64,000 bases of DNA from IMG/VR virus record IMGVR_UViG_3300042467_002158, positions 62,001-126,000 of that record, one strand, 5' to 3'. Below, one piece after another: positions 24,777 through 57,346 of this stretch. The stretch is from a virus. The notes beneath the pieces were generated by a model that saw nothing but the letters and a program-made list of their open reading frames with translations, was not told the DNA's origin and ran no database searches. Position 1 is the stretch's first letter. Each line of letters begins with the position of its first letter. The position numbers were made by a program, and so were the translations under genes.

Positions 24777-27227
24777 TTACTTAATAAGCGTAAAACTACC
24801 GTAAAATTCTTTGATTTCATCGGTTTTGGGACTTTTAAATTTTAATTTCCACGTATAAACCCCATCTTGACAAGGAATATTGTTATATGTCCCATCCCAA
24901 CCCACATTGGTATTAAAAGATTCCCATACAATCTGTCCCCACCTATTAAAAACCACAAAAGAGTAGTTAAAAATGTCCACTCCTGAGGTGATTATTGGTT
25001 TTAATATGTTATTTCTTTCATCACCATCGGGTGTAAAGGCATTTGGGATGTAAAATATCTCATTTGGACACAATTCTAAGGTTATGGTGAAGGATTGGGG
25101 GTTAGAAACACACCCATTGTCCCATCTTACTCCCTGAAAAGTGAATATACCGTCCATATCCCACGTTATATTTAACGTATTGTTAGTAATTGTATCCCCA
25201 AACACATACCATTCGTTATATCCACCACTAACTGATGATAAACTAAACACATCTGATACAGTATCACCCTCACATATTTGATGATACTCTAAATTCTCAT
25301 CAACAACACCATTTGTCACAGGTAAAATGTTAGGTCGTGGATAAACTTGAACGTTAATTGACGTATCAAACCAACATCCTGACTGAGAATACATATAATT
25401 TACAAAATCTAACCCAATAAACCCATTGTCAGGACAATATTGATTACCCCAAACGTTTAATCCACTGAAAATTCCATTAGGTGGGGTTGCAATTAAGTTA
25501 ATACAGTTGTCATATTCACAAAACGGACCGATAGGTGTAATTACAGGTAGTATATTCAATACAACAATAGAAAAAGTTTGAGGTTGTGACTGACATCCAA
25601 CTTGATTTACACCAATAACTGATAAAGTATTGGAATATAGACCCCCATTCACACCAGTTACGTCCAAATTTATTTGATTTGTCCCTTGTCCTGACGAGAT
25701 ATTTCCCATCGTGTTAGTCCATACGTAGTTTAGGTTAGGAAAAACACTTGAGACGTTGTATAAATTACCTGTAGAGTTAAAACAAACTGTGTCTGATCCT
25801 GTAATCGGGTTAATTGTTACAAGTGGAGGATCAACTAACGTTGTGGTTTGAGTTACAGGACAGTTATTTGCGTCTGTAACAGTCACAGAATAGTTTCCCG
25901 AACATAAATTAGTTGCCGTTTGAGTGGTTTGACCATCATTCCAAAGATATGTGTATGGTGCAAGTCCATCTATAGGATTAACAATTGATGATCCGTCACA
26001 ATAACCAAAACAAGTTGGGTTAGTTGACGTTACTGTTGGTAATTGTAATGGTGGTGGGTTTAATAAAGTTGAAGTTCCGTTATATACACACCCATTTGCA
26101 TCGGTCAAAGAGAAATTATATGTCCCTGAACACAAATTATTTAATGTTAGAGTGTTTGACCCATTAGACCAATTGATAATATAAGGACCTAATCCGCCAA
26201 CAGGAGTTACAACTATTGATCCATTACAACCATTATTACACAAAGGATCTGTTGGAGTAATTGTGGGAGGTGGTAAATTTGGTGTTGGTGTTACTAAAAT
26301 TGTATCAGGACCTTGTCCAACTCCTGCGTTACAAGAGGACCAACCAGCATTACAAGAAGGGAACACTGGTTGGCAGGTATAATAAGCTCCTCCGATTGGA
26401 GGAGTAACAGTAATACTCAATCCCGTACCAATTGGGTTAGGGTTTCCAACCTGATACCAAGTCCATGTTGGCTGAATTACACCTCCACTTGGCGTCCAAC
26501 GATAAGCATTGTTAACAGTGGTCCATTGTGTTGAGTTTCTACCTGCAACAGGAACTGCCGCATTTCCTAAAAGGTTGTGAATACCCTGAACTGCGGTTCC
26601 TCCTGCCCATTGATTACATGCGGGTTTATTTGCAATATGATTTTCAATCACGTTAGTTGATTCGTAAAGAATAATATGAAAAGTTCCCTGAAGGTTTGTA
26701 CAAGAAAACATAGGAACACCTATCCAACTGACTACTAATTTACGACAAGGGGCAGTTCCTTGTACTTGATATCTAATTTGACCCCCTAAACTTGGATTCC
26801 AATCTTGCCACGGACCCATAATACAATTTTTGGGAACTGCGGCATTTGCTGAAGGTATTGCTTGAGTGGCAAAAGTGGCTGGTTGAACTCCAGCACCCAA
26901 CGAAATCCATCCATTTGATCCTATACGAAACTGTGTATAATTAGAACCGTAAAAACAAAAAGTAAACCCAATATTAAACGTATTAGATTGTGAATCATCA
27001 CTAAGTTGTACCAATGTTCCGTTATTAACTTGTACAACATAAGGTATGTTAGTAACTCCGTAATTAGAGGTTCCTTGAGGAAGGGCTCCTTGACCACATT
27101 GTGATGGATCAGCAGTTAACGTTGTTGAGTTTACACCACAAGGTAAAGTTAAGTCAGGTCCAATATAAGGACAATACTGAGAATAAATAAAAAGGGGGAA
27201 TAAAAATAAAAATAAAATGTGTTTCAT
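24777..27227 (-). CDS. Type IX secretion cargo, SprB-repeat and CHU_C-type protein
   Basis: 816 residues. Signal peptide MKHILFLFLFPLFIYS. Residues about 60-250 form a lectin-like or adhesin beta domain. SprB-type repeats follow (PTDPLCNNGCNGSIVVTPVG, then NLCSGTYNFSLTDANGC), then PKD-like domains. The last 90 residues are the gliding-motility-associated type B sorting domain: FYIPNAFTPDGDERNNILKP and VVFNRWGQIVWESFNTNVGW, DGVYTWKLKF. This domain directs export and anchoring through the type IX system of Bacteroidota. For a phage it could be a secreted host-surface modifier. Complete in one reading frame. Confidence 0.85.
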   Translation of the reverse strand: MKHILFLFLFPLFIYSQYCPYIGPDLTLPCGVNSTTLTADPSQCGQGALPQGTSNYGVTNIPYVVQVNNGTLVQLSDDSQSNTFNIGFTFCFYGSNYTQFRIGSNGWISLGAGVQPATFATQAIPSANAAVPKNCIMGPWQDWNPSLGGQIRYQVQGTAPCRKLVVSWIGVPMFSCTNLQGTFHIILYESTNVIENHIANKPACNQWAGGTAVQGIHNLLGNAAVPVAGRNSTQWTTVNNAYRWTPSGGVIQPTWTWYQVGNPNPIGTGLSITVTPPIGGAYYTCQPVFPSCNAGWSSCNAGVGQGPDTILVTPTPNLPPPTITPTDPLCNNGCNGSIVVTPVGGLGPYIINWSNGSNTLTLNNLCSGTYNFSLTDANGCVYNGTSTLLNPPPLQLPTVTSTNPTCFGYCDGSSIVNPIDGLAPYTYLWNDGQTTQTATNLCSGNYSVTVTDANNCPVTQTTTLVDPPLVTINPITGSDTVCFNSTGNLYNVSSVFPNLNYVWTNTMGNISSGQGTNQINLDVTGVNGGLYSNTLSVIGVNQVGCQSQPQTFSIVVLNILPVITPIGPFCEYDNCINLIATPPNGIFSGLNVWGNQYCPDNGFIGLDFVNYMYSQSGCWFDTSINVQVYPRPNILPVTNGVVDENLEYHQICEGDTVSDVFSLSSVSGGYNEWYVFGDTITNNTLNITWDMDGIFTFQGVRWDNGCVSNPQSFTITLELCPNEIFYIPNAFTPDGDERNNILKPIITSGVDIFNYSFVVFNRWGQIVWESFNTNVGWDGTYNNIPCQDGVYTWKLKFKSPKTDEIKEFYGSFTLIK

Positions 27228-28392: not shown

Positions 28393-28905
28393 TTATCTTC
28401 CTGTTCTAAGGCCTCTGTCAGCAGCACCTTTAAGTGCCATAACTAAACCAGCAATTAATACTGCGGTGCTCACAGGACCACCACCCATTTTGTCAACGTA
28501 ATCGTGAACCGCAATCATAAGGTCTCCAGCATCAGTATAACCCATTGCTTGACTAATCATTCCAAGTATTCCTGCTCCCATCATACCAATTCCACCACGA
28601 ATCATTGCCTTTTCTTTAAAAGATTTTTTTCTATCAGAAATGTCTTCTCTTAAAAACATTTCAGTTAGATCTTCTGTTTCAGAATTAACAACCATATCCT
28701 CAAGTTCTTCGATTTCGTCACTATCTAATCTTCTTAATTTTCTTTTAAAGAAGTCAGCAACCGCATGAACGGTGTCTTCTTTTGACATTCCTTCGGATTC
28801 TTCATCATCCATTGTAATTGACATCATTTCTTCTTCAGCCTCACGAACAAGTCTTCTTACTAAAGAATGAAATTCAGATTCTGTAAGTCTAATTTTTCTT
28901 CCCAT
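28393..28905 (-). CDS. Tagged membrane protein
   Basis: 170 residues. Leader MGRKIRLTESEFHSLVRRLV then REAEEE, a site of VRE type. An acidic helical middle follows, then two membrane segments near the C-terminus (GGIGMMGAGILGMISQAM and VSTAVLIAGLVMALKG). TATTTATA box at 28921-28928. It could be a packaged membrane protein. No family recognised. Confidence 0.65.
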   Translation of the reverse strand: MGRKIRLTESEFHSLVRRLVREAEEEMMSITMDDEESEGMSKEDTVHAVADFFKRKLRRLDSDEIEELEDMVVNSETEDLTEMFLREDISDRKKSFKEKAMIRGGIGMMGAGILGMISQAMGYTDAGDLMIAVHDYVDKMGGGPVSTAVLIAGLVMALKGAADRGLRTGR

Positions 28906-30121: not shown

Positions 30122-30466
30122 TTATCTTAATCGTTGTAATCTATGAATATATCGATTTACCTTTGTTTGAGTTTCATTTATCAACTGATAAAGTTCATAC
30201 ATTATTTCGAGTAATTCTCTCTTGTCTCTTCTATCCATATCAGAACTTTGAATTTTGGAATATAGTTCTTTGATGTTGGAAATAATATCTCGATCGGAGT
30301 AAACGTTTTTGATTAAATCTTGCATTATTTCTTCAAGCTCCTCCGAGTAAATTGTATATTTATCTTTAAACAAATTACTAAACCAACCTTCTTTTACTTC
30401 TTCAGATTCATTTATAACATCAAATACGATTCTATTGATGTCTGATTCTGTTAAATTATTTTTCAT
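30122..30466 (-). CDS. Tagged hypothetical helical protein
   Basis: 114 residues. Leader MKNNLTESDINRIVFDVINE then SEEV with INE as cleavage-like site. The remainder is predicted helix (SEELEEIMQDLIKNVYSDRD, MYELYQLINETQTKVNRYIH). A TATTTATT box precedes. No family recognised. Confidence 0.6.
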   Translation of the reverse strand: MKNNLTESDINRIVFDVINESEEVKEGWFSNLFKDKYTIYSEELEEIMQDLIKNVYSDRDIISNIKELYSKIQSSDMDRRDKRELLEIMYELYQLINETQTKVNRYIHRLQRLR

Positions 30467-33507: not shown

Positions 33508-34194
33508 TTATAAGGTGGTTGATAATGTAATATTATTTCCATTAACATTATAATTTCCTCTGGTTTTTCCCGTAAAAGGATTTGATTCACGTGAATTAAA
33601 TGAGTTTGTATTATCCTCACTTGTCATACATGAAAATCTAACCTTATTTAAAACAATGTCAAAAATCCCTTTGGTTTTATTTTTACATTTTTTATTATAG
33701 TTATCAAATCCACTAGGTTTTGTAATTGTTTTACTACGATCTTCGTTTAAAATCGAAATAACGGACGACGTAATATTTGACTCATATAGATTATTTTCAA
33801 AATTACAATAGAATATCATTTCAAATCGTGGTCCCATTTCAAACATAAGTTCAAAAGGGAAATCATATTTATCATTAAACTCGTCAACAAATTTTTTTAT
33901 TTTATTAAAATAATTTTCCAAAACTTCTTCTCCATCTCTATATTTTGAGTCCCACTCTCTTGGGTTTCTATAAAATTCCATAAGATGCAAACTATCCCCA
34001 TCTTTTGAAATTTCAAAATCTAGTCCCCCATAAGAAAAAATGATTCCGTCATCATTAGGATAATGAAAACTTTCAGAAAGTCTTCTTAATTTTAACCAAA
34101 TGTTTGTCCAATCGATATCTGAAAACCCTTCGTTTATTACACGTCTAACTACTCTTGTTAAATCTGACTCACTCAATCTAACGATTTTTTTCAT
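33508..34194 (-). CDS. Tagged hypothetical protein
   Basis: 228 residues. Leader MKKIVRLSESDLTRVVRRVI then NEG, nearly identical to 9097 and 36208. Body includes DDGIIFSYGGLDFEISKDGD and FDVFELMFEMGPRF-like beta text, and a C-terminal part (VRFSCMTSEDNTNSFN, ...NVNGNNITLSTTL). TATTTATA box at 34208-34215. No family recognised. Confidence 0.65.
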   Translation of the reverse strand: MKKIVRLSESDLTRVVRRVINEGFSDIDWTNIWLKLRRLSESFHYPNDDGIIFSYGGLDFEISKDGDSLHLMEFYRNPREWDSKYRDGEEVLENYFNKIKKFVDEFNDKYDFPFELMFEMGPRFEMIFYCNFENNLYESNITSSVISILNEDRSKTITKPSGFDNYNKKCKNKTKGIFDIVLNKVRFSCMTSEDNTNSFNSRESNPFTGKTRGNYNVNGNNITLSTTL

Positions 34195-35668: not shown

Positions 35669-35693
35669 AAAAAGGGGGGTCTTGTTTTAGAAA
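35669..35693. repeat. Direct repeat element, copy 1
   Basis: AAAAAGGGGGGTCTTGTTTT followed by AGAAA, next to the stop of the tagged gene at 35687. A copy with one change is at 37479-37503 beside an HNH endonuclease gene. Confidence 0.45.
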
Positions 35694-36106
35694 TCCTCTT
35701 CTTTAAAATACAGATCAATAATATCTGAGAATCTTAAACCCATTATTGCGATTCCAAGTTGTTCGGGTATTTCATTTTCAATATATATATTTCCATTCTC
35801 ATCAATAAACTTCTCATGATCCCCCACATCTAAATAAAGATATTTTTTCCCGTCAAGTTCAAAAAGATACATAGGTCCATATTTGTTTAAATAACGATTA
35901 ATCAATCCAGGTGAAATATATCCAGCAAATTCCATTGGAATATCATAAGTTGAGGTTATTTGTTGAATGACATTTGTAAAATCAATACCCAACTTGTTTT
36001 TTAAAAACTTTTTGTTTTTTTCTAACATAGAGTCATTTTCACGAATCACTCGTTTAACGAGGTTAGTTAATTGTCCGTATTGATCTTCAGTTATAATGAT
36101 TTTCAT
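35687..36106 (-). CDS. Tagged hypothetical protein
   Basis: 139 residues. Leader MKIIITEDQYGQLTNLVKRV then IREN, site IRE. The body has a beta-like segment (YLFELDGKKYLYLDVGDHEK) and ends with FSDIIDLYFKEEDF. The stop overlaps the direct repeat copy 1. No family recognised. Confidence 0.6.
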   Translation of the reverse strand: MKIIITEDQYGQLTNLVKRVIRENDSMLEKNKKFLKNKLGIDFTNVIQQITSTYDIPMEFAGYISPGLINRYLNKYGPMYLFELDGKKYLYLDVGDHEKFIDENGNIYIENEIPEQLGIAIMGLRFSDIIDLYFKEEDF

Positions 36107-36207: not shown

Positions 36208-36699
36208 TTATGTCATACTCTCACTTCTAAAATTATTAAATGGGTAACCTCTTCTCATAATAATATTTGAAGTATCTACGTCATAATCATAAGAGTTTAA
36301 CAACCAATCTTTAATATATTCTCTAGATTCATTAAGATCTAAATTAAAGGCCCTTAAAAATTGATCCATAAACCCGATATTCATATAGACCTTGTTTTCT
36401 TCTTTATTTGAAATTAACATCATAGTTGGTTTATTTTCATGATAAAAAAACATTTTCCAAGTAGGTCTTAATTCATCGGTCATACTATTTAAGTCGTTGA
36501 ATAAACTAAGGTATTTCATTGGGGTATCAATACCAGACAATTTTTTTAAGTTATCTGAACCCCCAACCATTCCGGATGATTCTTTCCACCCATCTTCTTT
36601 GATCATATCAATTAAACTATCTTTTGTTTCATTTTCTTTGAGAACTTGTTTAATTATATTGGTTAGTTGTGATTCAGTAATAGATACAATTTTTTTCAT
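36208..36699 (-). CDS. Tagged hypothetical protein
   Basis: 163 residues. Leader MKKIVSITESQLTNIIKQVL then KEN, site LKE, one of the clearest copies. Residues about 30-65 (DMIKEDGWKESSGMVGGSDN, LKKLSGIDTPMKYLSLF) are notable because the same theme, V(G/A)G-(I/N)NLK, occurs in the tagged protein at 46502 (AAEMVGGINNLKRMM). No family recognised. Confidence 0.62.
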   Translation of the reverse strand: MKKIVSITESQLTNIIKQVLKENETKDSLIDMIKEDGWKESSGMVGGSDNLKKLSGIDTPMKYLSLFNDLNSMTDELRPTWKMFFYHENKPTMMLISNKEENKVYMNIGFMDQFLRAFNLDLNESREYIKDWLLNSYDYDVDTSNIIMRRGYPFNNFRSESMT

Positions 36700-44198: not shown

Positions 44199-45443
44199 TC
44201 ATACAAAATATAATTTTAGTTGTCCTAATCTCATGGTATCTATAATTGAGTAACCACCAACTGATGATACTATAAGTTCTAATTCGTCGTTTAAATCATC
44301 AAGTTCTCCTTTTCCTATAATATCACCTAATCTAACGGGATCTTCTTCTTCCCATCCACTATTTGAAGGGAAAGGTTTATATTCATAATATTCTCTCCAT
44401 TGTTTTGCTCCCCACTTTTCATCTACTTTTAATTCTCCGTAAATTGTTAATGTGTTGGAAAATTCAGAATAACTAATATTATCTATTTCTATTTCTTTAA
44501 ACCAAGAAAAACTCTTTGGTATAATTTTGTTGATCGCACTTTCTATATTGGAATAGTCTTCTTCTTTTGGAGTCCAATATTCTTTTAATGATTTATTTTT
44601 CTTTTTAACACAATTAGGATATCTCTTACCAAACATTGTCTTCATACCTTTTTGAGTATATCCTTTCCAACATTTCTCTGTAAGTTCTGTTTCTTCATTA
44701 TATTGGTGTTTGAAATGAACATGATCTGGTTTCATTTCAAATGCAGGTGCGGCATAACCACCAACACCTTCGGTTTCTTCTTCTTTATGAGTATCATCAC
44801 ATTTTGTTGTGTCGTAAGCAATATATATCCCGTCAAACTTTGGTAAATAATCTTCAATTAATCCTTTAAGTTCTTGTTTAGATTGTCCGTATCTTTCATA
44901 ACCAAAATCTTTCAAACTATCATAAGTAAAATATAAAATGATCCTTATTGAAATTCCTTCTCTATGATGTAGTTTGATTACATCCCAACTTAACCCACAA
45001 ATACCTTCATCAAATACATCATAAACTAACTTGTTAATTAGTTTTTCATATTTCATGAAAGGTTTTTTAAGATCACTTACATGTTCTTTCACTGATTCTG
45101 TTAGAATATCCTGAACTTCTAAATTATGTTTATTTACAGGAGCACTACGGTGTTGAGAAAAATCGTGTTTGGTTAATTTTCTTCCCATTCGTTTTTCTAA
45201 ACAAGACATACAAAGTGTATTGGTATTGTTTCCGAATTCACGCCAAATATCATCGTCGACCATGTACATTTGATAATTGGGATCTCCGCAATCTTCGCAT
45301 GTGAATTTTTCTTTTTCTGATTGTATTGTACTAGGATCAACTTCTACCCTTTTTTTAAACCTGAAAAAATTACCAAGATCATCTAATAAACTTTCATTAG
45401 TTTCTTCTTTGAGTATATTTTTGATATGTTGTTTTAGATCCAT
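44199..45443 (-). CDS. Tagged zinc-ribbon protein with duplicated leader
   Basis: 414 residues. Leader MDLKQHIKNILKEETNESLL, site LKE. Zinc ribbon CEDCGDPNYQMYMVDDD then CMSCLEKRMGRKLTK. A second leader-like segment LEVQDILTESVKEH follows near residue 108. Motif TEKCWKGYTQKGMKTMFGKR then YPNCVKK near residue 262 is a block I recall from marine phage proteins. Multi-module architecture, possibly an assembled virion protein. It is the last gene of the operon. Confidence 0.6.
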   Translation of the reverse strand: MDLKQHIKNILKEETNESLLDDLGNFFRFKKRVEVDPSTIQSEKEKFTCEDCGDPNYQMYMVDDDIWREFGNNTNTLCMSCLEKRMGRKLTKHDFSQHRSAPVNKHNLEVQDILTESVKEHVSDLKKPFMKYEKLINKLVYDVFDEGICGLSWDVIKLHHREGISIRIILYFTYDSLKDFGYERYGQSKQELKGLIEDYLPKFDGIYIAYDTTKCDDTHKEEETEGVGGYAAPAFEMKPDHVHFKHQYNEETELTEKCWKGYTQKGMKTMFGKRYPNCVKKKNKSLKEYWTPKEEDYSNIESAINKIIPKSFSWFKEIEIDNISYSEFSNTLTIYGELKVDEKWGAKQWREYYEYKPFPSNSGWEEEDPVRLGDIIGKGELDDLNDELELIVSSVGGYSIIDTMRLGQLKLYFV

Positions 45444-45470
45444 TACTTAATAAATATTAAAAAAAACCAA

Positions 45471-46499
45471 TTAGTCCCTACTTCTTAATGGCACTATTTC
45501 TACATCAAACATATCTATACGAGGATCATAAAATCTCGGGTTTGTTCGTAAACGATTTAATACTTCACCATAAAAATCATTGAATGAAAAATACTCCCTG
45601 AAATCATCGAACTCAAAGTCAGTCATTTCTTCAATGAAATTATCGTCAACTTGTTCTTCTTTACCGTCTTCAGTTATTTTAACACCCTCAAAATATCCCC
45701 TTGTGGTAATTTCAATAGTATCACTGTTTATGTGAATTTGATATCTTACAAATTCAAAGTTTAACATATACTGAGATTTATAGGCGTCGAATTCTAAATA
45801 CTTTTTATTTTTTAATGTTGTTTCAATAAAGTTTTCATCATTTTTGTTTAAGTAATACCGACCGTTTGGCATGTTTTCTATAACATTCATTTGTTTGTAT
45901 AACCCATAAAAATCTAAATTAACAAAAGAACAAAAATCTCTAAACTCATCAACCGCCACTTCTTTAATCAATTCCCCATTGAAAGAATAATCCTCAGGGT
46001 TTTCAATAATCCAAGTAATAACATCATATTCTTCGTGATAATTTGGTTGTAAAATTATTCCTTTATATTCAACTGGTTGTTCATGTAAAAAGTTTTTGTA
46101 GAAGTATTTAATTGGTTTTTCTAATTTTTTCTTTTTTTCAGATTCGTTAATAACATTTCCCAAATTATCATATTTCAACTTTTCAGTGTCAATGTAAACA
46201 TCAACAATTTTATGTCTAAAATCCCAATGAAAAGCCCAATAAGGACAAACAACAACATGACCACCTGTAATTTGCATGATTTCGTCTGATATGTGTTCCG
46301 CAAACCAAGATGTGATGTTTGCGGCAGGATCGTCGGAGTCAAAGTAAATTTTAAGGAGTGGTTTATCATCATATGTGGATTGCTCAATAAAAGAAACCTC
46401 ATCAAACAAATCATATATCATTTGTTTAACCAAATTAACTTTATTGTTTTGGTTTTCCTCAACAAGAACATTTTTAATATGTTGTCTAAGTTGATTCAC
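45471..46499 (-). CDS. Tagged hypothetical protein (GTG start)
   Basis: 342 residues. The start is GTG, giving MNQLRQHIKNVLVEENQNNK, site LVE. The body is beta-rich and acidic (LLKIYFDSDDPAANITSWFA, FDFEDFREYFSFNDFYGEV). It lies 2 bp from the upstream gene. The leader falls in the class MxxLIxxILKEE of 46502-48266. No family recognised. Confidence 0.6.
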   Translation of the reverse strand: MNQLRQHIKNVLVEENQNNKVNLVKQMIYDLFDEVSFIEQSTYDDKPLLKIYFDSDDPAANITSWFAEHISDEIMQITGGHVVVCPYWAFHWDFRHKIVDVYIDTEKLKYDNLGNVINESEKKKKLEKPIKYFYKNFLHEQPVEYKGIILQPNYHEEYDVITWIIENPEDYSFNGELIKEVAVDEFRDFCSFVNLDFYGLYKQMNVIENMPNGRYYLNKNDENFIETTLKNKKYLEFDAYKSQYMLNFEFVRYQIHINSDTIEITTRGYFEGVKITEDGKEEQVDDNFIEEMTDFEFDDFREYFSFNDFYGEVLNRLRTNPRFYDPRIDMFDVEIVPLRSRD

Positions 46500-46501
46500 A
46501 A

Positions 46502-47371
46502 TTACATTACTTGGTTTAAGAATGTTTTAACAGCTCTTACCACATTTTGAGCGTAAGAGTCAAGGTGTCTTTCATAAAAATTGAAGGGTTCAATTACATC
46601 ATGTTCTATCAACATTTTAATAATTGTCATTCTTTGTTCTTGTTTGTTTTGAAATGTTGATATGGTATATGTTTCTCCGTTAACATCAAAAAATATTGTC
46701 TTAAATATTATTGGTTTTTCTTCATCACCAAAATTTCTTTCCTCCACTTTATATCTTCTTAAAAGAAAGTTTAATATCTTTTGAGTTGGGTCTTCTTCGT
46801 TTTCTTGAAGTGTCTTCGATTCGTTCATATTAATTTTATTGTAATACTCACGATGTAAGTTTTTAATATCATTGTAATTATACCTAATGTCGTGGTCCAA
46901 ACTTTCCCAGTCTTTTCCATTTACAAAGTCAATAGAAACATAATACCCATCTTTGTACATGTCTCTTACTTCAGGTTTTATATCAAGTTTACCTATGTTT
47001 AAATCAGCAATTGAGGAGTAAATAAATTGCTCCAACAATTTTTTATCACTTTCATTTAAGTTAGAATCATCATAAATCAAATTAAGTATTGGCCAAGAGT
47101 TCGTTTCATGTATATTTTTAGCAATACCAACAACTTCAAATTCAAATGGGAATTCAATTATATCATTTTTGAAATGTCCTAAAAGATCCAACTTTCCTTT
47201 GAGTGAATCTATCATGTCCGTAAGATCAGGAAATGGTTTCATCATTCTTTTAAGATTATTTATTCCACCAACCATTTCAGCAGCAACAAATATACCCTCA
47301 TCTTTAATTACATCAAGTATGTTTGAAAGTGCTGAAGACTCTTTTAAGATATATCTAATTAACTCTCTCAT
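46502..47371 (-). CDS. Tagged hypothetical protein
   Basis: 289 residues. Leader MRELIRYILKESSALSNILD, site LKE. It contains AAEMVGGINNLKRMM, a theme shared with the tagged gene at 36208. Later NESKTLQENEEDPTQKILNF marks a second module. Overlaps the upstream gene by 4 bp (ATGA). No family recognised. Confidence 0.6.
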   Translation of the reverse strand: MRELIRYILKESSALSNILDVIKDEGIFVAAEMVGGINNLKRMMKPFPDLTDMIDSLKGKLDLLGHFKNDIIEFPFEFEVVGIAKNIHETNSWPILNLIYDDSNLNESDKKLLEQFIYSSIADLNIGKLDIKPEVRDMYKDGYYVSIDFVNGKDWESLDHDIRYNYNDIKNLHREYYNKINMNESKTLQENEEDPTQKILNFLLRRYKVEERNFGDEEKPIIFKTIFFDVNGETYTISTFQNKQEQRMTIIKMLIEHDVIEPFNFYERHLDSYAQNVVRAVKTFLNQVM

Positions 47372-47832
47372 TTAACAAAAATGTAATTATCAACACCCAA
47401 ATCTTTAGGTTCATTTTGATTAAAAACAGCCCGTGATCGTTTCATTTTGAGTTTGTTTGGTATCATTTCCTCATAAAAACTCTCTAAGTCATTTTGTAAT
47501 ATTCTATATTCATCGGTATCAAAGTTTTCATCTTCCTCATAATTTGTTTGAGAATACGGATATGGGTATTTTTCTCGTGTTTCGATATCCTTTTTCAAAA
47601 AATTATACCATTTTGGGTGTGGTTTCAAACCATAAAACTCCATCATTTTCGAGTGATCAATTTCAAGGTCGATATATATTTTATAAGTCCATTTATCGGG
47701 TGAATCAGAATATTCCCAACCCACAACAAAAGGATATTGTTTTTTTAACATTATAACGGTAATGTCAATTCCTTTACGAATATCGTCAGGACTTGTTTCT
47801 TCTTTTAATATTTGTTTAATTAAATTTCTCAT
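47368..47832 (-). CDS. Tagged hypothetical protein
   Basis: 154 residues. Leader MRNLIKQILKEETSPDDIRK, site LKE, the clearest member of this class. Body YKIYIDLEIDHSKMMEFYGL and a C-terminal PKDLGVDNYIFVK. Overlaps both neighbours (ATGA and TAATG), so translation is coupled. No family recognised. Confidence 0.62.
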   Translation of the reverse strand: MRNLIKQILKEETSPDDIRKGIDITVIMLKKQYPFVVGWEYSDSPDKWTYKIYIDLEIDHSKMMEFYGLKPHPKWYNFLKKDIETREKYPYPYSQTNYEEDENFDTDEYRILQNDLESFYEEMIPNKLKMKRSRAVFNQNEPKDLGVDNYIFVK

Positions 47833-48251
47833 TATTCAGTTCTATAATCATCTTGGTGTAAATAAAATTCAATATATAATTCACCATTATTACTTTCCCA
47901 ATTTACTTTAATAGCAAAAAACATGAGATAACTATCACCATCAACTTTATTCAATTTACCGTTTTTTGAAAATTCGTATTTTCCGATAATTTGGTAAATT
48001 TGATCTTCAACTTTTTTCATTTGGGTAGATAATTCATAAATGTCAGGATCCTCACAATAAGATTTGACTTTAATTGTTGCAGTGATATCTTTATATCTTT
48101 CGTAAAAATCAACATCAACAAATTCAATTTCTTCAATATCATTATTCACATTACTTTGAATAATATACTCAAGTGATTTCATATTTCTGAGAAATCTTTC
48201 TTTGAGTCCCCCGTCTTCTTCTTTTAATATTTTTCTAATTTTTTGTTTCAT
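47832..48251 (-). CDS. Tagged hypothetical protein
   Basis: 139 residues. Leader MKQKIRKILKEEDGGLKERF, site LKE. Beta-rich body (VDVDFYERYKDITATIKVKS, FFAIKVNWESNNGELYIEFY). Stop and next start share one base (TAATG). No family recognised. Confidence 0.6.
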   Translation of the reverse strand: MKQKIRKILKEEDGGLKERFLRNMKSLEYIIQSNVNNDIEEIEFVDVDFYERYKDITATIKVKSYCEDPDIYELSTQMKKVEDQIYQIIGKYEFSKNGKLNKVDGDSYLMFFAIKVNWESNNGELYIEFYLHQDDYRTE

Positions 48252-48265
48252 TGTTTGTAATTCAA

Positions 48266-51103
48266 TTAAGCGGTCTTCATTCCGTCGGGATTTTTAATTG
48301 CCGCCGCCACTTTATCTTTATTTAACAATTTTGTGTTTGCCCTTGAATTAATCGCAACATCTATCAACTCTGAGTCAGATTTCCCTTGTTTTACGGCATC
48401 GGTTAATTCATTTGCAAACTTTTTGAAGAAACCAGGTCCATTCCAACACGCATAAGTCATATGAACCAAAAGCCCTTTGTTTTTCATAATTTTGTCTTTG
48501 ACTTCTTGGTCTTTAACAAAATTTGACATATTTCTATCAAATGATCTTTTCATTATTTTAGCGGCCAATTCTTTTAATTCCTCTTCGTTTTCACCACCTC
48601 GATATAACCATTTCCATTTTTTACAAAAAGCGTCCATTCCCAATTCTTCTTTTTGGTTGTCTATAATTTCAAAAAATTGTTTACCCTCAGGGGTGCTTTC
48701 TATGTTACCGTTATATCTATCTAACCCGAACATAGTTTCTGTTGATGAACCCATACTTCCCTTCGGGTGATTTTTACAAATTCCTAATTTACTTGTGCTC
48801 TCATTTTTTGACGTTGATCCGTTCCAATATCCGCCCTCAAAATTGGCAATCACTTTTTTTGTGATTTCCATAAAATCTGAATCACTTCCTGATGTTTGAG
48901 AAACCGTCGCGGTTGATGTCTGTGTTGATTTAGTATCGTCCTCATCTGATGTTTCTTTGGATCCAAACAACGAACCAATCTTGTTTTTAAGTATTTGACT
49001 AAGATTAGACTTCAACGATCCAAAATTTAAAATATCACCAACAAGTTGTCCTTGATTTGTTTCTAAAGATTTGTCGTCGGATAAGTTAATAACTGACGGT
49101 TCTGTCGTTTTAGAATATAAACCTTCTGATGTTTCATGTGGTGGATATTTTTCAGGTAAAGTGTATTTAAAGAAATATTGTCTGATTTTTACTCCTGACT
49201 TATTATTAAAGTCTAAAACTTGTGTAATGTTTCTTGCTCCCATTTTTTCTAATTCTTTTTTTAATGGTCCTACTTGACCCAACGCTCTAATATCGGCCCC
49301 ACCACCTGCAGATCCTCTTGTTGAAACTCCCATGTAAGCATTTCCATCTTGACTTTCATCCAAAGTTGCTTCCCACTGAACCGTATAATTTTTAGAGTCT
49401 ACTGTTATGTTTATATTCACAACGTCGGGATTGATTCCTGCGTTGTAAATTTCTTTTAACTTTTCTCCAATTTTTGTTGTCATTTTACCCCCAAAACCAT
49501 CTTTTTTTCTTCTTTCAAATGAGTGAAGAGCATCAGCATCCCCTTTGGGTGCTGAATATCCATCTTTAATTATTAATGGTAAACTAATTTTTTGTTCTTT
49601 TATTAGGTTTTTTGGGTTCAGAAGAATTGATGTTGGGCTACTTAATATTTTTTTTTTAGTAATGTATTTTTCTTGTATTTTGGTGGAAGACTTTATTTTT
49701 TCTTTTAAAGTTTTTACAAACTCAGCCTGAATGTCTTTTAACAAATCAACATAAGATTCTCTAACTCTTTGTTCAGGTTCTTGGAACTTAGAATTAGAGT
49801 ATAGATAGTTAATACCAGAAATATTTGTAATACATTTATGTCCTCCTGAATTAGCCATAATAACATCATAACCATTTACAGAAGCCTTGTTAAATACTTT
49901 TCTATCTTCCGCAGGTATTGATTTGAAAAGTTTTTTTGACATGTAATCAAGATATTTTTCAAGTTTTTCTGTCCCATAAATCTTCAAAGATGGTGAATTT
50001 CCATATATTGCTAAAAAGTCTTTAAATGTAAATCCAACTGAAGTTTTATCAGAGTCCATTTCTGATATTCTTTTAAGTGTTCCAAATGAAATTCTTTGTT
50101 TTTCTAATTCAGGTCTAAACTTTTCTAATACCTCATTTTTTATTTCACCTAAATCAACACCCTTTAACGCTCTTTCTTTTTTATATGGATTACAAGATGC
50201 TTGAACCATTCCCATTGGAAGTCCTGTCACTAAGAACTCAGCGTCAGGATGATTGATGAATGGTGTGTAACGATCATATCCACCTGATTTTTGCGTTGGT
50301 CCTAATGTATATTGTGAAATAATACCATCTTCATAAGTAACACCTTTTTCTTTTCTTGATTCAATATAGGACTCTTGGTTTTTTATCAATTGGTCTATTG
50401 ACGCATAACCTTCTTTTTCCATTATATCTTTTATATTTAATAAAATACTCTGAAGTGATGGTTTTGCATCCATAACTAACTTTTTCAAAAACCCAGGTTT
50501 GTTTTTAAACGCTAATAATAACTTGTTAGCAACAAGTCCCATCATTTTTTTATTTTCTTTAACTCCTTTTGTTTTATCCACTTGGAATAGATATTTCAAA
50601 ACTTGTTGTGGAGTAATATCATGTTTTGCAAAATCTGCTGAGTCAATCATAGAAATTGTTTCGATATCGTCTTGACTAAAAATATCTCTTGGTGAAATTG
50701 ATTGTGAAATTGTTTCAACATTCGATCTTGATGGTTTGAAGTTTGTTGATGTTCCCTGTTCTACACCAGCTTGAGTGTCGTGGTGATCTGTGTGAATTAC
50801 AAACATCGGTTTACCGTGAGCAAAATCCACTAAGACTGGCATTATATCACCTTCACCTTCAGGTTTATGAATTGCAAACTCTTTTGATCCATATTGAATA
50901 ATTTCGGCATCAACAACTTTGATTCCGTTGTTTTCCAAATAGTTTTTCATTGCCAATGCCGTGGTAACTCCATCTAAATCTTGATGAAAATAGATTTTGG
51001 CCATTTGATATCTTTTGGAAAGTTTTTTAATATCTCTGATACCACTTTCTTTAAGTAGTTTTTTAGATTCTTCAGTTATTACTTGAATTATTAAATCTCT
51101 CAT
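48266..51103 (-). CDS. Tagged DHH phosphoesterase fused to muramidase-like domain
   Basis: 945 residues. Leader MRDLIIQVITEESKKLLKES, site ITE. Residues about 35-330 are a DHH-superfamily phosphoesterase: IYFHQDLDGVTTALAMK, LVDFAHGKPM and VIHTDHHDT carry the metal-binding aspartates and histidines of RecJ/NrnA/GdpP-type enzymes. A long middle has a beta part with FGGKMTTKIGEKLKEIYNAG. The last 210 residues (about 740-940) resemble a lysozyme domain: VIANFEGGYWNGST and FFEIIDNQKEELGMDAFCKK. A nuclease joined to a peptidoglycan hydrolase is unusual. Confidence 0.6.
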   Translation of the reverse strand: MRDLIIQVITEESKKLLKESGIRDIKKLSKRYQMAKIYFHQDLDGVTTALAMKNYLENNGIKVVDAEIIQYGSKEFAIHKPEGEGDIMPVLVDFAHGKPMFVIHTDHHDTQAGVEQGTSTNFKPSRSNVETISQSISPRDIFSQDDIETISMIDSADFAKHDITPQQVLKYLFQVDKTKGVKENKKMMGLVANKLLLAFKNKPGFLKKLVMDAKPSLQSILLNIKDIMEKEGYASIDQLIKNQESYIESRKEKGVTYEDGIISQYTLGPTQKSGGYDRYTPFINHPDAEFLVTGLPMGMVQASCNPYKKERALKGVDLGEIKNEVLEKFRPELEKQRISFGTLKRISEMDSDKTSVGFTFKDFLAIYGNSPSLKIYGTEKLEKYLDYMSKKLFKSIPAEDRKVFNKASVNGYDVIMANSGGHKCITNISGINYLYSNSKFQEPEQRVRESYVDLLKDIQAEFVKTLKEKIKSSTKIQEKYITKKKILSSPTSILLNPKNLIKEQKISLPLIIKDGYSAPKGDADALHSFERRKKDGFGGKMTTKIGEKLKEIYNAGINPDVVNINITVDSKNYTVQWEATLDESQDGNAYMGVSTRGSAGGGADIRALGQVGPLKKELEKMGARNITQVLDFNNKSGVKIRQYFFKYTLPEKYPPHETSEGLYSKTTEPSVINLSDDKSLETNQGQLVGDILNFGSLKSNLSQILKNKIGSLFGSKETSDEDDTKSTQTSTATVSQTSGSDSDFMEITKKVIANFEGGYWNGSTSKNESTSKLGICKNHPKGSMGSSTETMFGLDRYNGNIESTPEGKQFFEIIDNQKEELGMDAFCKKWKWLYRGGENEEELKELAAKIMKRSFDRNMSNFVKDQEVKDKIMKNKGLLVHMTYACWNGPGFFKKFANELTDAVKQGKSDSELIDVAINSRANTKLLNKDKVAAAIKNPDGMKTA

Positions 51104-51847: not shown

Positions 51848-53065
51848 CTACACAAAAACATAAGGGAGTTCATCCCAAGATGTAGTATATTTTTGAGTAA
51901 TATAGTCTTGTCTCATTTCCCACTCATGAGTTTCATTCTGTGGTGCTTCAACAACTTGGACCTCATCATTGAATAAAGAGGTTTGAATAATTGTGTCGGG
52001 AGTTAGTTCATTAAAAACAATTCCACACTTTTTATATTTTTCAGATTTATTACAAAGAACTTTGTATTGTTCATGAATCTGAGACCAAATAAGATCGGGA
52101 TCTCTTGTTGGGGTTTGTAGTTTGATTGTTTTAGAATGGTGATACTTATCTCCTTTATGATAGTTTCCTGAAACAAATATGGTTGCCTTATTTGCAAACA
52201 ATTTGTTTTGACTTAGTTTTTTTACACCGTTTTTAATGTAGGTATACATCGCTTCACCCAATTGATCAAAGTCCTGTACATCTTTTCCAAATGAACGAGT
52301 GGAAGCGATATTCTTCTTTGGTTTGGATTTTTTTTGAATTGGAAAACAATACATCTCTGTTAACTCCAATTGTGTTTTTACACCATTGATATTCATCAAC
52401 TTTCTAACAGTATATTCGTTTGTGTTAATAAACTGACCTACCGATTCAACACCGATGTTTTTTAATTTTTTTGCCCATTTTCTACCAATACCCCAAACTT
52501 CATCTACATCAATTCCATAACAAATATTTCTAAAGTTTGGTAAGTCCCAGTATGAACACACACCATTATAGTTTAGCTGTTGTTTAGCTAAATAAGATGT
52601 TAGTTTAGCTAAGGTTTTGTTCGGACCAACACCGATAGATACAGGGATTCCAACTTTCTTTCTTACTTCTTCTTTGATTCCCAATAATGTTTCTGTTAGA
52701 TCTTCAAGAGGAATGTTTGAAAAATCAACAAAAGCTTCATCAATAGAATACACTTCAATGTCATTTCCAAACTCACCAATCACTTTCATAACCCGATCTG
52801 AGATATCACCATACAAGTTATAATTTGATGAATAGACGCAAAATCTATGTTGGTCCATGAACTCACGGCTCTTGAAAAATGGTTCACCCATTTTAATTCC
52901 AAGATCTTTTGCTTCTTGAGATCTGGCAATCACACATCCGTCGTTGTTTGATAATACAACGGTAGGTCTTCCAATTGACTCAGGGTTAAATAACCGTTCA
53001 CAACTAACATAAAAGTTGTTACAGTCAATAATTCCAATCTTTCTTACATTTTCTTTAATATCCAT
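51848..53065 (-). CDS. umuC: Y-family DNA polymerase (UmuC-like)
   Basis: 405 residues from MDIKENVRKIGIIDCNNFYV. All Y-family marks are present: IIDCNNFYVSCERLFNP (catalytic Asp), VVLSNNDGCVIARSQEAKDL, SIDEAFVDFS (catalytic Asp-Glu), SIGVGPNKTLAKLTSYLAKQ and GIGRKWAKKLKNIG (helix-hairpin-helix). The C-terminal part (STRSFGKDVQDFD) is the little-finger start of UmuC proteins. With UmuD' it would form a translesion polymerase active on damaged DNA. It overlaps the UmuD-like gene, as in bacterial umuDC operons. A start at 53080 is also possible. Confidence 0.92.
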   Translation of the reverse strand: MDIKENVRKIGIIDCNNFYVSCERLFNPESIGRPTVVLSNNDGCVIARSQEAKDLGIKMGEPFFKSREFMDQHRFCVYSSNYNLYGDISDRVMKVIGEFGNDIEVYSIDEAFVDFSNIPLEDLTETLLGIKEEVRKKVGIPVSIGVGPNKTLAKLTSYLAKQQLNYNGVCSYWDLPNFRNICYGIDVDEVWGIGRKWAKKLKNIGVESVGQFINTNEYTVRKLMNINGVKTQLELTEMYCFPIQKKSKPKKNIASTRSFGKDVQDFDQLGEAMYTYIKNGVKKLSQNKLFANKATIFVSGNYHKGDKYHHSKTIKLQTPTRDPDLIWSQIHEQYKVLCNKSEKYKKCGIVFNELTPDTIIQTSLFNDEVQVVEAPQNETHEWEMRQDYITQKYTTSWDELPYVFV

Positions 53066-53361
53066 GTTACTTTTCCCCATAAGTTTTTTTGTCCTTTGTA
53101 TTCTCTAAGTTTGAAGTGTGTTTTTTCTGTTAAAACTACCAAATCCCCATCTTTTGGATCCTCAGTTCGGTCAATTACAATTGTATCTCCTTGGTTAATT
53201 CCAAACACACTTGGTCCTGAATACTTAAAATAAAATGTTGTATAATGATCTTTAACAATTAAGTCGTTTAGATCTAACCTTTTATCAACATAGGTTTCTG
53301 CTGGTGAAGCAAATCCTGTTGTTGTCGCTTTAATTTGAATTGGGTTTTGATGTCTTAACAT
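53044..53361 (-). CDS. umuD: UmuD-like S24 peptidase, short N-terminal arm
   Basis: 105 residues, against about 139 in E. coli UmuD. The post-c cleavage sequence GFASPAETYVDKRLDLNDLI is there, followed by the nucleophile region YSGPSVFGINQGDTIVIDRT and the general-base Lys region (KTHFKLREYKGQK). The usual GDSM is GPSV. Only 14 residues precede the cleavage glycine, with T-G replacing the normal Cys/Ala-Gly bond. So it may be made nearly in the processed form. RecA-dependent self-cleavage would normally activate it. Confidence 0.82.
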   Translation of the reverse strand: MLRHQNPIQIKATTTGFASPAETYVDKRLDLNDLIVKDHYTTFYFKYSGPSVFGINQGDTIVIDRTEDPKDGDLVVLTEKTHFKLREYKGQKNLWGKVTWILKKM

Positions 53362-53775: not shown

Positions 53776-54345
53776 TTATTTGATAATAGTAACAAAACCT
53801 GAAATAACTTTCAATTCATCAGAGTCTAATAAGTCAATTTTCATAATCCAAGAGTATGTTCCATCAGGAACAAAACTACCATTATATGTTCCGTCCCAAT
53901 TTGTATTTGCGTTTTTACTTTGCCAAACAATATTTCCCCACCTATTATAAACCGTAAGTTCAAAGTTTTCTAAAGAAATCCCACTTGTTATTACTGGTCC
54001 CCACGTTTGATTAAATTCATTATTATCGGGTGTAAAAGAATTTGGGACCCAATAAATTAAGGGATCACATTTTGTTACACTCACATTATACACAACAGGT
54101 GGACCTGGACATCCTAAATCATTATAACCAACCGCCACTATTTGATAATCACCAGGTTGACTATATGTAATACTCATATCGTTTCCGTTTCCTAAACTGA
54201 AACCATTCAAAAACCATTCAATAGTTCCACTCATATCAATTGAAGTTGAATATGTCACGGTATTTGAACTTTCACATATTTCAAATTCTTGTTGTGAAAA
54301 ACAAGTTAAACTAAAAAATAAAAACAAAAACAATAATTGTTTCAT
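53776..54345 (-). CDS. Secreted type IX C-terminal domain protein
   Basis: 189 residues. Signal peptide MKQLLFLFLFFSLTCFS. A PKD-like segment (PGDYQIVAVGYNDLGCPGPP) is followed by the type B sorting domain: YWVPNSFTPDNNEFNQTWGP, FELTVYNRWGNIVWQSKNAN, TNWDGTYNGSFVPDGTYSW. It is mostly the sorting domain alone. Its start shares a base with the stop of the next upstream gene. Homologous to the end of the 816-residue protein at 24777. Confidence 0.85.
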   Translation of the reverse strand: MKQLLFLFLFFSLTCFSQQEFEICESSNTVTYSTSIDMSGTIEWFLNGFSLGNGNDMSITYSQPGDYQIVAVGYNDLGCPGPPVVYNVSVTKCDPLIYWVPNSFTPDNNEFNQTWGPVITSGISLENFELTVYNRWGNIVWQSKNANTNWDGTYNGSFVPDGTYSWIMKIDLLDSDELKVISGFVTIIK

Positions 54346-54911
54346 TAGTTATGTGATATTGGTGTTAATGTTGGTAATGGGTTTACAACTACGTTTATTG
54401 TTGTTGAAAATGAACATCCTCCGTTTGAATATAAATAAGATATTGTGTGTGTTCCTGCTCCCGCAGTTTGAGGACAGAATTGACCATTAACAACACCAGG
54501 TCCCGACCAAATCCCACCCGCAGGAGTTCCAACTAAAGGAACACATGGATCTGTTGAACAAAATGGTCCAATTTGAGTTATTGTTGGAACAACATTATAA
54601 ATTAAAACATTTAGGTTAACCGCTGGTGAAAAACACCCTTGAGGACTTGTATAAGTAACCGACACACCATTATTGATAAGACCCGCAGGACAATTGGACC
54701 AATTGACAAATATTGTATTTGTTCCTTGCCCTGATTGGATTGTTGCACACGCAGGGATTGTCCAGTTATAGTTTCCATTACCAACTGAAGTAACGGTGTA
54801 TTGAGAAAGGGTTCCTGATTGAAAACAAATTGTGTCGGGATTGTTTGTTGTTAATTGACCAAAAAGTGTTGTAGTCAAAAACATGAATAGTAATACAAAT
54901 AATTTTTTCAT
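54345..54911 (-). CDS. Secreted PKD-like protein ending in PISHN
   Basis: 188 residues. Signal peptide MKKLFVLLFMFLTTTLFGQL. The body (PDTICFQSGTLSQYTVTSVG, NVVPTITQIGPFCSTDPCVP) is a pair of beta domains closely similar to residues about 480-640 of 24777. It stops at LPTLTPISHN without a sorting domain. The stop overlaps the start of 53776 (TAATG), so the two are probably co-translated and may assemble. Confidence 0.75.
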   Translation of the reverse strand: MKKLFVLLFMFLTTTLFGQLTTNNPDTICFQSGTLSQYTVTSVGNGNYNWTIPACATIQSGQGTNTIFVNWSNCPAGLINNGVSVTYTSPQGCFSPAVNLNVLIYNVVPTITQIGPFCSTDPCVPLVGTPAGGIWSGPGVVNGQFCPQTAGAGTHTISYLYSNGGCSFSTTINVVVNPLPTLTPISHN

Positions 54912-54920
54912 TTTTTTATT

Positions 54921-55976
54921 TTAATTATGGTTTATTGGACCTAACAATATTTGATTAGGTTGGGTTATAGTTACAGATCCTGTTGCTGTGCAACCACTTA
55001 TATTTACCGTTACGGTATATGTGCCAGGACAAAGATTTGATATTGAAGGGGTTGTTTGTCCTCCCGGTGACCAAAGAAAAGTGGCCCCTGGTGTTGTTAC
55101 ATTTGAGTTTGCGGTTCCATCACATAATCCAAAACATGTGACATTTGTTGAGGTTGGGTTAACCACCAAATTAACGGGTGTGTAAGTGATTGTTAAATAT
55201 CCGTGTCCTGTGTTGTTTGTGGGTAAACAAGTTCCTCCAACAGGGACAAGTGAAGATCCTCCACCGCCACCACCTCCACCGTTAGCACCAGTGCAACATC
55301 CATCATTTCCTCCACCGCCACCGCCATAACGACCGCCACCGCCACCGCCACCTGATGCCGTTTGCCAAAATCCACCATTTCCACCTTGACCTAATGTTCC
55401 TGCTTGACCACCAGGAGGTGTTCCTGCCCAAGGAGCACCACCATTTCCTCCTGCAACTTGTGTTCCTCCTCCACCGCCAGCACCAAAGGTATTTCCTCCG
55501 TTTGCTCCGTTATTACATAAGGCTCCACCACCAGGTGTATTTGTGTTTGATCCTCCACCTTTACCACCACCCGCTCCTGCAACAATTACTCTATTTGCAA
55601 GTGCGGTTCCTCCAATTCTAATATCAGTTGCACCTCCACCACCACAAGAATTATATGTTACATTCGCAGGGTTAGAAGCATATCCTGTTCCTCCACCATT
55701 CCATCCTCCTGAATTATTTCCACATGTCCCCATTCCACCAACATATATATTCAGAGTTTGACCTGGTGTTACGGCTATTGTTGCGGTTATTCTTGCTCCG
55801 TTTCCTCCAATAGCACCTCCACCTTTTGCTCCTGCGGCGACTACATTGATAGAAGTAACACAAGGTGGAACAACCCATGTTTGAACAGCACCTGTATAAT
55901 TAAAAGTTACGGTTTGAGTTTGTGATAAACTAATGAAAAATAGAAATATAGATACTATAAAAGATATTAGTTTCAT
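54921..55976 (-). CDS. Secreted glycine-rich protein with SprB-like repeat, ends GPINHN
   Basis: 351 residues from MKLISFIVSIFLFFISLSQT (signal peptide). Residues about 20-260 are glycine-rich (GGKGGGSNTNTPGGGALCNN and GGGGGGGRYGGGGG), resembling phage tail-fibre tip or adhesin glycine sheets. Then an SprB-type repeat (STNVTCFGLCDGTANSNVTT, LCPGTYTVTVN). It ends at QILLGPINHN. With the two following genes it mirrors the domain order of the 816-residue protein at 24777. Confidence 0.7.
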   Translation of the reverse strand: MKLISFIVSIFLFFISLSQTQTVTFNYTGAVQTWVVPPCVTSINVVAAGAKGGGAIGGNGARITATIAVTPGQTLNIYVGGMGTCGNNSGGWNGGGTGYASNPANVTYNSCGGGGATDIRIGGTALANRVIVAGAGGGKGGGSNTNTPGGGALCNNGANGGNTFGAGGGGGTQVAGGNGGAPWAGTPPGGQAGTLGQGGNGGFWQTASGGGGGGGRYGGGGGGNDGCCTGANGGGGGGGGSSLVPVGGTCLPTNNTGHGYLTITYTPVNLVVNPTSTNVTCFGLCDGTANSNVTTPGATFLWSPGGQTTPSISNLCPGTYTVTVNISGCTATGSVTITQPNQILLGPINHN

Positions 55977-56059
55977 ACACATAAATACGACAAAAAAATA
56001 ATTAGGTTTGGGCCAATGAAAGTTTATGATGTTTATGTTATTATTTGAAAGATTTTCAC

Positions 56060-56067
56060 TATATTTG
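56060..56067 (+). promoter_or_regulatory. Bacteroidota-type -7 box (TATATTTG)
   Basis: TATATTTG 4 nt before the GTG start of the UvrC-like gene, implying a leaderless message. The spacing to an upstream TTTG (56044) is too short for a -33 element. Confidence 0.5.
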
Positions 56068-56071
56068 TATT

Positions 56072-57346
56072 GTGATTACAGAGAAACTTTCAAACATTCC
56101 CCAATCAAGTGGTTGTTACCTTTTCAAAAATGAGAAGGGTCAGATCATCTATGTGGGTAAGTCAAAGTTTTTACCGAAACGAGTGAAGTCTTACTTTCAA
56201 AAAAATCACAAGGATATCAAGACTACTTCTCTTGTGAGTGAGATCCGTGATGTTGAGTTCATGACTACTAACGATGAGTCACAGGCTCTTTTGTTGGAGG
56301 ACGAACTTATCAAGTCTTTGAAACCAAAATACAACATCAAAGCAAAAGACGACAGATCTCGTCGTTGGTTTATTACTTTGAGTGATGAGGAGTTCCCTCG
56401 TTTACAAGTTTGTAATCCTTCTAACTTTTCAGGTCAGATCCTTCTTGAGTCTACAAGTTCCAACTCTTGTTATGAGATCTATGAAATGGTTCACGACATC
56501 TTCAATCTTCGTTCTTGTTCTTACAACTTGACTGAAGAAAACATTTCAAACGAAAAGTTCAAAACTTGTTTGGAGTTTCATCTTGGTCGTTGTAATGCAC
56601 CTTGTATTTCAAACATTCTAAAGTTCTCCTACAAGAAGATTGTAAGTGAGATGAAAGAAGTATTTTCTTTTGAGTTTGACAAGGTTCGTAGTCGTTTGAA
56701 AAAGTCTATGAAATATTTTTCTGATTCTATGGAGTTTGAGAAAGCTCAAGAGTTCAAAACTAAAATCTCTGTTGTTGATTCACTTCAAAAGAAACTTGAA
56801 CCTTTTCGTGTTAGAAAGTATAATGATGTTGCTCGTCAGTTTAAAGAATCTTTGGGTCTTATCAATGTTCCTACTTTGATTGAGGCGTTTGACAATTCTC
56901 ACACTAGTGGTGACTGTCAAGTGTCTGCTCTTGTTCGTTACAAGAATGGTAAAACTGATAAGTCAAACTACCGTAAGTTTAACATCAAAACTGTTGAGGG
57001 TCCTGATGACTACGCTTCATTCACTGAAGTTCTTTCTCGTCGTTTTACAAGACTTTTGAACGAAAAACAAGAGTTACCTTCACTTGTTGTTATTGATGGT
57101 GGTAAAGGTCAGTTGGGTGTTGCAAAACAAGTATTTGAATCTCTTGGTTTGTTATCTCGTATTGATTTGATTTCTATTTCCAAAAACGACAAACACCAAT
57201 CTCAAACAATCCACTTGACTGACGGGTCGTCATTTGATATTCCACGAAATGAGTTTGGATTTTTGCTTGCTGAAGTTCAAAATGAAGTTCACAGATTTGT
57301 GATTTCTTTTCACCGTAAAAAAAGATCAAAAAAAGTTATTGGATAA
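56072..57346 (+). CDS. uvrC: Short UvrC-like endonuclease (GIY-YIG plus RNase H-like domain)
   Basis: 424 residues from GTG (codons VITEKLSNIPQSSGCYLF); the in-frame ATG at 56045 lies upstream of the promoter box and is rejected. GIY-YIG nuclease domain: GCYLFKNEKGQIIYVGKSKF. A UvrB-binding (UVR) motif-like segment (SMEFEKAQEFKTKISVV) lies in the middle. The C-terminal RNase H-like domain has AFDNSHTSGDCQVSALVRY and VVIDGGKGQLGVAKQVF and ends RKKRSKKVIG. The two helix-hairpin-helix motifs of the normal 600-residue UvrC are absent. It may cut damaged DNA with host UvrAB. Confidence 0.88.
   Translation: MITEKLSNIPQSSGCYLFKNEKGQIIYVGKSKFLPKRVKSYFQKNHKDIKTTSLVSEIRDVEFMTTNDESQALLLEDELIKSLKPKYNIKAKDDRSRRWFITLSDEEFPRLQVCNPSNFSGQILLESTSSNSCYEIYEMVHDIFNLRSCSYNLTEENISNEKFKTCLEFHLGRCNAPCISNILKFSYKKIVSEMKEVFSFEFDKVRSRLKKSMKYFSDSMEFEKAQEFKTKISVVDSLQKKLEPFRVRKYNDVARQFKESLGLINVPTLIEAFDNSHTSGDCQVSALVRYKNGKTDKSNYRKFNIKTVEGPDDYASFTEVLSRRFTRLLNEKQELPSLVVIDGGKGQLGVAKQVFESLGLLSRIDLISISKNDKHQSQTIHLTDGSSFDIPRNEFGFLLAEVQNEVHRFVISFHRKKRSKKVIG

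Follow-up and report, generated by a model that had tools for sequence, protein, structure and literature searches.

Why would a phage encode as three separate secreted proteins a series of domains that it also encodes as a single chain, and what do the similar C-terminal tails on two of the three proteins do? These questions are raised by three consecutive genes in a 64,000-nucleotide stretch of viral DNA, here called the window, which covers bases 62001-126000 of the 140,128-base virus record IMGVR_UViG_3300042467_002158. The genes lie on the minus strand and are named A, B, and C from upstream to downstream.

The three-gene cassette

Gene A (54921..55982, 353 aa) starts with a signal peptide (55923..55982, predicted cleavage before Gln21). 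It continues with a glycine-rich domain of the ALK_LTK_GRD type (residues 49-245, 55248..55838; PF12810, PHROG 7388) and a SprB-like repeat domain (residues 277-350, 54933..55154), recognized by homology to an 816-aa protein encoded elsewhere in the window. PF13573 (SprB) is absent from the Pfam report for this A protein; it scores over the cut-off in the A relatives of loci L006 and L066. The protein ends in GPINHN (54924..54941), a putative docking tag delimited by column counts in A proteins. Gene B (54345..54911, 188 aa) encodes a signal peptide (54858..54911, cleavage before Gln19), a PKD_6 domain (PF19408, over cut-off), a second Ig-like domain, and the tail PISHN (54348..54362), of which P-I-x-H is conserved among B proteins. 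In the ORF translations, the complete C-termini read LLGPINHN for A and LTPISHN for B, each directly followed by the stop codon.

Gene C (53776..54345, 189 aa) has a signal peptide, an Ig-like domain, and a type B sorting domain of the type IX secretion system (T9SS) at 53785..54048, and lacks an HN tail. The sorting domain matches CHU_C (PF13585) with an E-value of 1e-16 and 61.3 bits against a Pfam cut-off of 27, and TIGR04131 with 48.4 bits against a curated cut-off of 35 bits. C thus combines a Sec signal peptide and a C-terminal CHU_C/TIGR04131 domain, two marks of a T9SS type B substrate. No sorting domain of their own was found in A or B of the window, and a scan of representative A proteins gave none either. 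B and C overlap by 1 base in the stop/start sequence TAATG (54343..54347, minus strand), which may serve translational coupling. From their sequences, A can be assigned the role of an exchangeable outer subunit and B that of a shaft or adaptor. The original prediction, made from the letters of the window alone, had described three secreted genes with separate signal peptides, together with both tails and the TAATG overlap, and every one of these features was borne out. The ORFs lie on the minus strand at the coordinates given, and Gln comes directly after each signal peptide.

Spread of the three-gene form

IMG/VR was searched with B and with a B alignment, which yielded more than 80 loci. They contain 62 distinct short stand-alone B ORFs in uncultured-virus contigs, with identities of 41-95% between phages and intact signal peptides. 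C adjoins B in all loci that extend far enough to show it. Five cases that seemed to have B without C turned out to be ORF-calling artefacts. The overlap of B and C is 1 base in 35 of 55 systems, while the spacing of A and B spans -23 to +109 and represents all three reading frames. The ends of the signal peptides are equally regular. The motif [AGSTCN]Q is found there in 56 of 59 A proteins, Gln19 in 100% of the 62 B proteins, and a Q-rule site in all 55 C proteins examined. Taken at sequence level, these data suggest that a three-gene surface protein is made by a large group of Bacteroidota viruses.

The same comparison bears on the simplest explanation of the locus, namely that the three ORFs are one gene split by a sequencing error, or one that is read through or frameshifted during translation. 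The same phage does have a fused homologue with the same domain order. Nevertheless, dozens of independent contigs have kept three separate ORFs, each with a signal peptide, internal signal peptides would be senseless in a fusion, and A-B gaps in all reading frames exclude read-through. This explanation is therefore given next to no probability. The original prediction had named relatives with one continuous, frameshifted gene as the outcome that would speak against it; the relatives instead conserve the three-gene form itself.

Some cassettes deviate from the common arrangement. In L089 and L169, A and B are parted by a secreted protein of about 410 aa, and the tail of A is still present. The interposed protein of L089 (11706-12926) has a PKD domain and a type A T9SS sorting domain, and that of L169 (2063-3307) is similar to it, so that both types of sorting signal occur in one cassette. 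L203 (4196-10898) carries a divergent cassette consisting of a C-like protein, a tailed PKD protein (ending in PTITPIIHN), and a 765-aa protein whose C-terminus resembles a type A sorting domain; there is no B. Upstream of it lies a gene for a 514-aa lipoprotein-like protein, which looks like a papain-type peptidase with Ig-like domains.

Conservation and specificity of the tail

The tail was not used for picking the B proteins, and all 62 distinct sequences end in I-x-H-N (60) or I-x-H-D (2). Wherever a locus has an adjacent upstream gene (57 of 57), the A protein ends in [IV]-x-H-[ND]. Column counts were made on a set filtered on the tail, the unfiltered check being the separate table of the 62 B proteins, and gave Ile at -4 and His at -2 in 59/59 A proteins, Asn at -1 in 58/59, and Gly at -6 in 57/59, with N, S, T, I, Q or L at -3. 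In B, P-I-x-H is found in 62/62 proteins and the final Asn in 60/62. Asp is the sole substitute for the terminal Asn (60 + 2 in B, 58 + 1 in A). Invariant Ile and His thus alternate with a free position.

At the DNA level, the codons of these residues vary (ATA, ATT or ATC for Ile, CAT or CAC for His, AAT or AAC for Asn), which indicates that selection acts on the peptide. A DNA element at the gene ends was ruled out on this ground. Among 2792 distinct ORFs of the fetched loci, IxH[ND] ends are confined to A- and B-type proteins. Moreover, all viral contigs were scanned, with no homology input, for a DNA pattern encoding PIxHN and a stop, followed by a start codon. The scan returned 57 matches, distributed over 52 stretches; 53 of them are the ends of A or B genes, and about four are chance matches. 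In the 140 kb record, PIxHN-stop occurs exactly twice, at the ends of A and B. Two matches per phage genome, both at A/B gene ends, rule out a chance origin of the tail. LR745206 has one extra match, at no secreted gene end.

The search for the tail on other secreted Bacteroidota proteins, which the original prediction had proposed as a check, came back empty: no tailed secreted genes were found among 396 Bacteroidota genomes, and two pattern matches (L189, L190) are not at such gene ends. In the sampled Bacteroidota genomes, B-like domains occur only inside large single-chain proteins of 600-3645 aa. For the 396 genomes sampled, these two results together rule out a host origin of the tail. 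That the tail has a function is well supported by comparison between the phages.

Exchange of the A ectodomain

Natural swaps show how the tail behaves when the rest of A changes. In L162 and L167, for instance, B is 95% and C 87% identical, and the A proteins are unrelated (200 and 322 aa, best E = 4), yet both end in IxHN. DNA similarity between the two loci begins at the end of A and extends to the end of C. A second case involves L004, whose A, B, and C proteins are identical to those of the window. The DNA of L006 and L004 matches as far as the start of the A signal peptide, diverges in the ectodomain, and matches once more over the final ~24 residues of A and over B and C. Across a tree built from 59 B proteins, the architecture of A changes at least 7-8 times. 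Judged from these alignments, the tail is what stays when the A ectodomain is exchanged. As the only fixed requirement on A, it would make the ectodomain exchangeable as a module. The outer piece is apparently free to be exchanged, with the host export signal confined to the last piece.

Fused homologues

The single-gene paralogue in the window (24777..27227, minus strand, 816 aa) consists of SprB repeats, a PKD_6 domain, an Ig domain, and a type B sorting domain, with no IxHN at its junctions. The idea that the three genes mirror the domains of this protein holds in part. The domain order is the same over residues ~400-816, and the N-terminal half is not covered. The SprB-like part of A (residues 277-350) has its counterpart in residues 400-475 of the SprB region (44% identity, E 1e-8), but the glycine-rich domain (PF12810) has none.

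Fused phage proteins are known from the window, LR745206, L014, and L015, and share 32-42% identity with B and C. When A, B, and C are aligned together on them, the tails coincide with the linker that leads into the next Ig-like domain, and the length of the second junction equals that of three of the four fused proteins. IxH[ND] was not found in the fused phage proteins. Large bacterial proteins with domains of this kind, 17,339 residues in total, contain it once, away from any junction.

The position of the tails, where fused homologues have an inter-domain linker, could mean that they are functionless linker remnants, kept by common descent after an ancestral gene was split. This is improbable. 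The tail is present on unrelated A ectodomains, the codons have diverged while Ile, His, and Asn have not, position -3 is free, and HN is absent from the corresponding place in the fused proteins.

A proposed docking model

The reading preferred here, with a probability of roughly 55%, is that A, B, and C form a three-subunit surface fibre, probably an adhesin, which is held together by docking of the tails and displayed on the infected Bacteroidota host via its T9SS. Each subunit would be exported by Sec through its own signal peptide. In the periplasm, the I-x-H-N strand of A would insert beside the first strand of the N-terminal Ig-like domain of B, and the tail strand of B would insert likewise in the Ig-like domain of C. 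The tail would thus supply in trans the linker or strand that is continuous in the fused homologues. C, the sole subunit with a sorting signal, would then take the pre-assembled complex through the host T9SS and anchor it, probably on a PorP/SprF-type shuttle of the host. The displayed fibre may act in adhesion or modify the cell surface in other ways.

Several observations are consistent with this geometry. The alternation of I-x-H is as expected of a beta strand that buries one of its faces. Shortly before the first Cys there is an acidic residue, which is Asp without exception in B and Glu in 96% of the C proteins; this Glu is found there in only one of the four fused homologues. Both acidic residues are candidate partners of the tail His. 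The chain of L143, read through the TAA stops with the signal peptides acting as linkers, was modelled with AlphaFold2. The model (pTM 0.38) has a DSSP strand at exactly x-H of both tails, with a pLDDT of ~60, and, as judged from its strand assignments, is weakly consistent with docking. AlphaFold2 was uninformative on the SprB-B chain of the window. When the rare HD tails (L140, L175) were compared with the partner residues, the few cases gave only one weakly covarying column.

The tail had initially been proposed as a docking or a processing signal, and the comparison supports the part that sees in it a functional assembly tag. Indeed, 62 B and 59 A proteins have the tail without exception; it is coupled to B and C, kept when A is replaced, absent when the domains are fused, and found only with C nearby. 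Processing or covalent ligation, in which a sortase-, asparaginyl-ligase-, isopeptide- or intein-like reaction would join the three proteins, is unlikely. A terminal Asn with Asp as its sole substitute recalls isopeptide tags, and His-Asn recalls the C-termini of inteins. However, Asn is the last residue, which leaves no leaving group. No Lys reaches 60% conservation or more in mature B or C, and profile matches of the Pfam/TIGRFAM type revealed no intein or ligase domain in A, B, or C. Furthermore, Gln at a Q-rule site is the first residue of the next subunit, and Bacteroidota convert such N-termini to pyroglutamate (PMC5837995, PMC10653852), by which they are normally blocked (PMC5837995). 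Docking is favoured over processing.

A stronger competitor, although still doubtful, is recognition of the tail by one common third factor instead of by the next subunit, with A and B exported or protected independently of C. Such a factor could be a host T9SS component, a periplasmic chaperone, or a protease repelled by the tail. It would account for the same tail on A and B despite different following partners, for the secreted gene between A and B in L089 and L169, and for the tailed protein of L203, which comes after C and without B. On the other hand, the tail occurs with a C gene nearby wherever this can be checked, and a general host receptor should have host clients, whereas no tail was found in the 396 Bacteroidota genomes. 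A shared partner for both tails does not demand a third factor either, because B and C both start with Ig-like domains and could offer a shared pocket.

Type B substrates use PorP/SprF-like proteins and stay bound to them (PMC9143113, PMC12618676). A cognate shuttle is often, though not always, encoded together with such a substrate; orphans that lack a linked one have been described (PMC12618676). No PorP/SprF-like shuttle was found in any of the seven phage records searched. Applied to two bacterial genomes, this search recovers 20 and 9. A host shuttle must therefore be assumed, and A and B may be exported as passengers of C.

A broader claim can be derived from the docking reading, and we hold it at slightly under even odds. 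I-x-H-N-COOH may be a transferable docking tag, a plug of four residues at the C-terminus, that recruits proteins without a sorting domain to a T9SS carrier. The result would be a piggy-back class of multi-subunit cargo with exchangeable tips, by which phages remodel the surface of infected cells.

Other features of the window

Many otherwise different proteins of the window share a similar amphipathic N-terminus, e.g., MKKIIRITESDLTNIVKRVIKENE, MGRKIRLTESEFHSLVRRLVREAEE, and MRNLIKQILKEET. Examples are encoded at 9097-9486, 22430-22801, 22856-23383, 28393-28905, and 30122-30466, and further ones at 33508-34194, 35687-36106, 36208-36699, 44199-48251, and 48266-51103. One possibility is that virion proteins have it in common as a targeting signal or as a packaging tag that is cleaved off. 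Close to the cassette, a UmuC-like (IMS) gene adjoins a short S24 peptidase (UmuD-like) gene at 51848-53361. A UvrC-like endonuclease gene (56045-57346) is located near this pair and the cassette. By sequence similarity, the three genes may constitute a phage-encoded set for DNA repair and mutagenesis.

Comparison with known systems

The closest relatives in architecture are SprB of Flavobacterium johnsoniae and the 'grappling hook' protein GhpA of Aureispira (PDB 9flp). Like A-B-C, they combine a signal peptide, Ig/PKD/SprB modules, and a type B sorting domain. Of the solved structures, GhpA comes closest to C in sequence (E 3e-11), and it also ranks first among the fold matches of the chain model. 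SprB and GhpA are each one long chain, whereas A-B-C is made of three separately exported phage proteins, two of them without a sorting domain. It is these two pieces that end in IxHN tails; SprB and GhpA are not split. The fused phage proteins have the same order of SprB, PKD, Ig, and sorting domains, but in one gene with one signal peptide.

Phage proteins addressed to the T9SS have been described before. The 'Cryophage' from cryoconite encodes variable proteins with T9SS sorting domains, which presumably use the host system and for which a role in competition or superinfection exclusion has been suggested (PMC7468147). There, however, each cargo carries a type A sorting domain itself, and neither a split cargo nor a docking tail was described (PMC7468147). 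UniProt also holds two proteins of an uncultured Caudovirales phage, A0A6J5NML0 (PKD-like, 185 aa) and A0A6J5NJX2 (gliding motility-associated C-terminal domain, 187 aa), which match B and C in length, name, and fold and are 61% and 40% identical to the L143 chain. They are annotated singly, with no system or tail described. The open-licence literature on phage T9SS sorting domains, on SprB, and on piggy-back export yielded no earlier account of such a system.

As for assembly, Mfa1 fimbriae may be the closest analogy in the phylum. Type V (Mfa1/FimA) fimbriae are likewise built from separate secreted beta-domain subunits (tip, shaft, anchor), for which donated-strand assembly has been proposed, and polymerisation of Mfa1 is impaired when its final C-terminal residues are removed (PMC5789003). 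No homology of the FimA/Mfa1 type was found for A-B-C in Pfam or in sequence matches to solved structures. In contrast to these fimbriae, A-B-C has no polymerising shaft and would be anchored by a T9SS sorting domain.

Most known T9SS cargo consists of single chains that each bring their own sorting domain. If the docking reading is true, the T9SS can export assembled complexes, phages can exchange surface tips and leave the export module as it is, and a natural peptide tag is at hand for displaying proteins on Bacteroidota. The conserved system of tag-bearing, swappable tips departs from the known T9SS surface adhesins, and there is a real chance that it represents a new class of piggy-back cargo.
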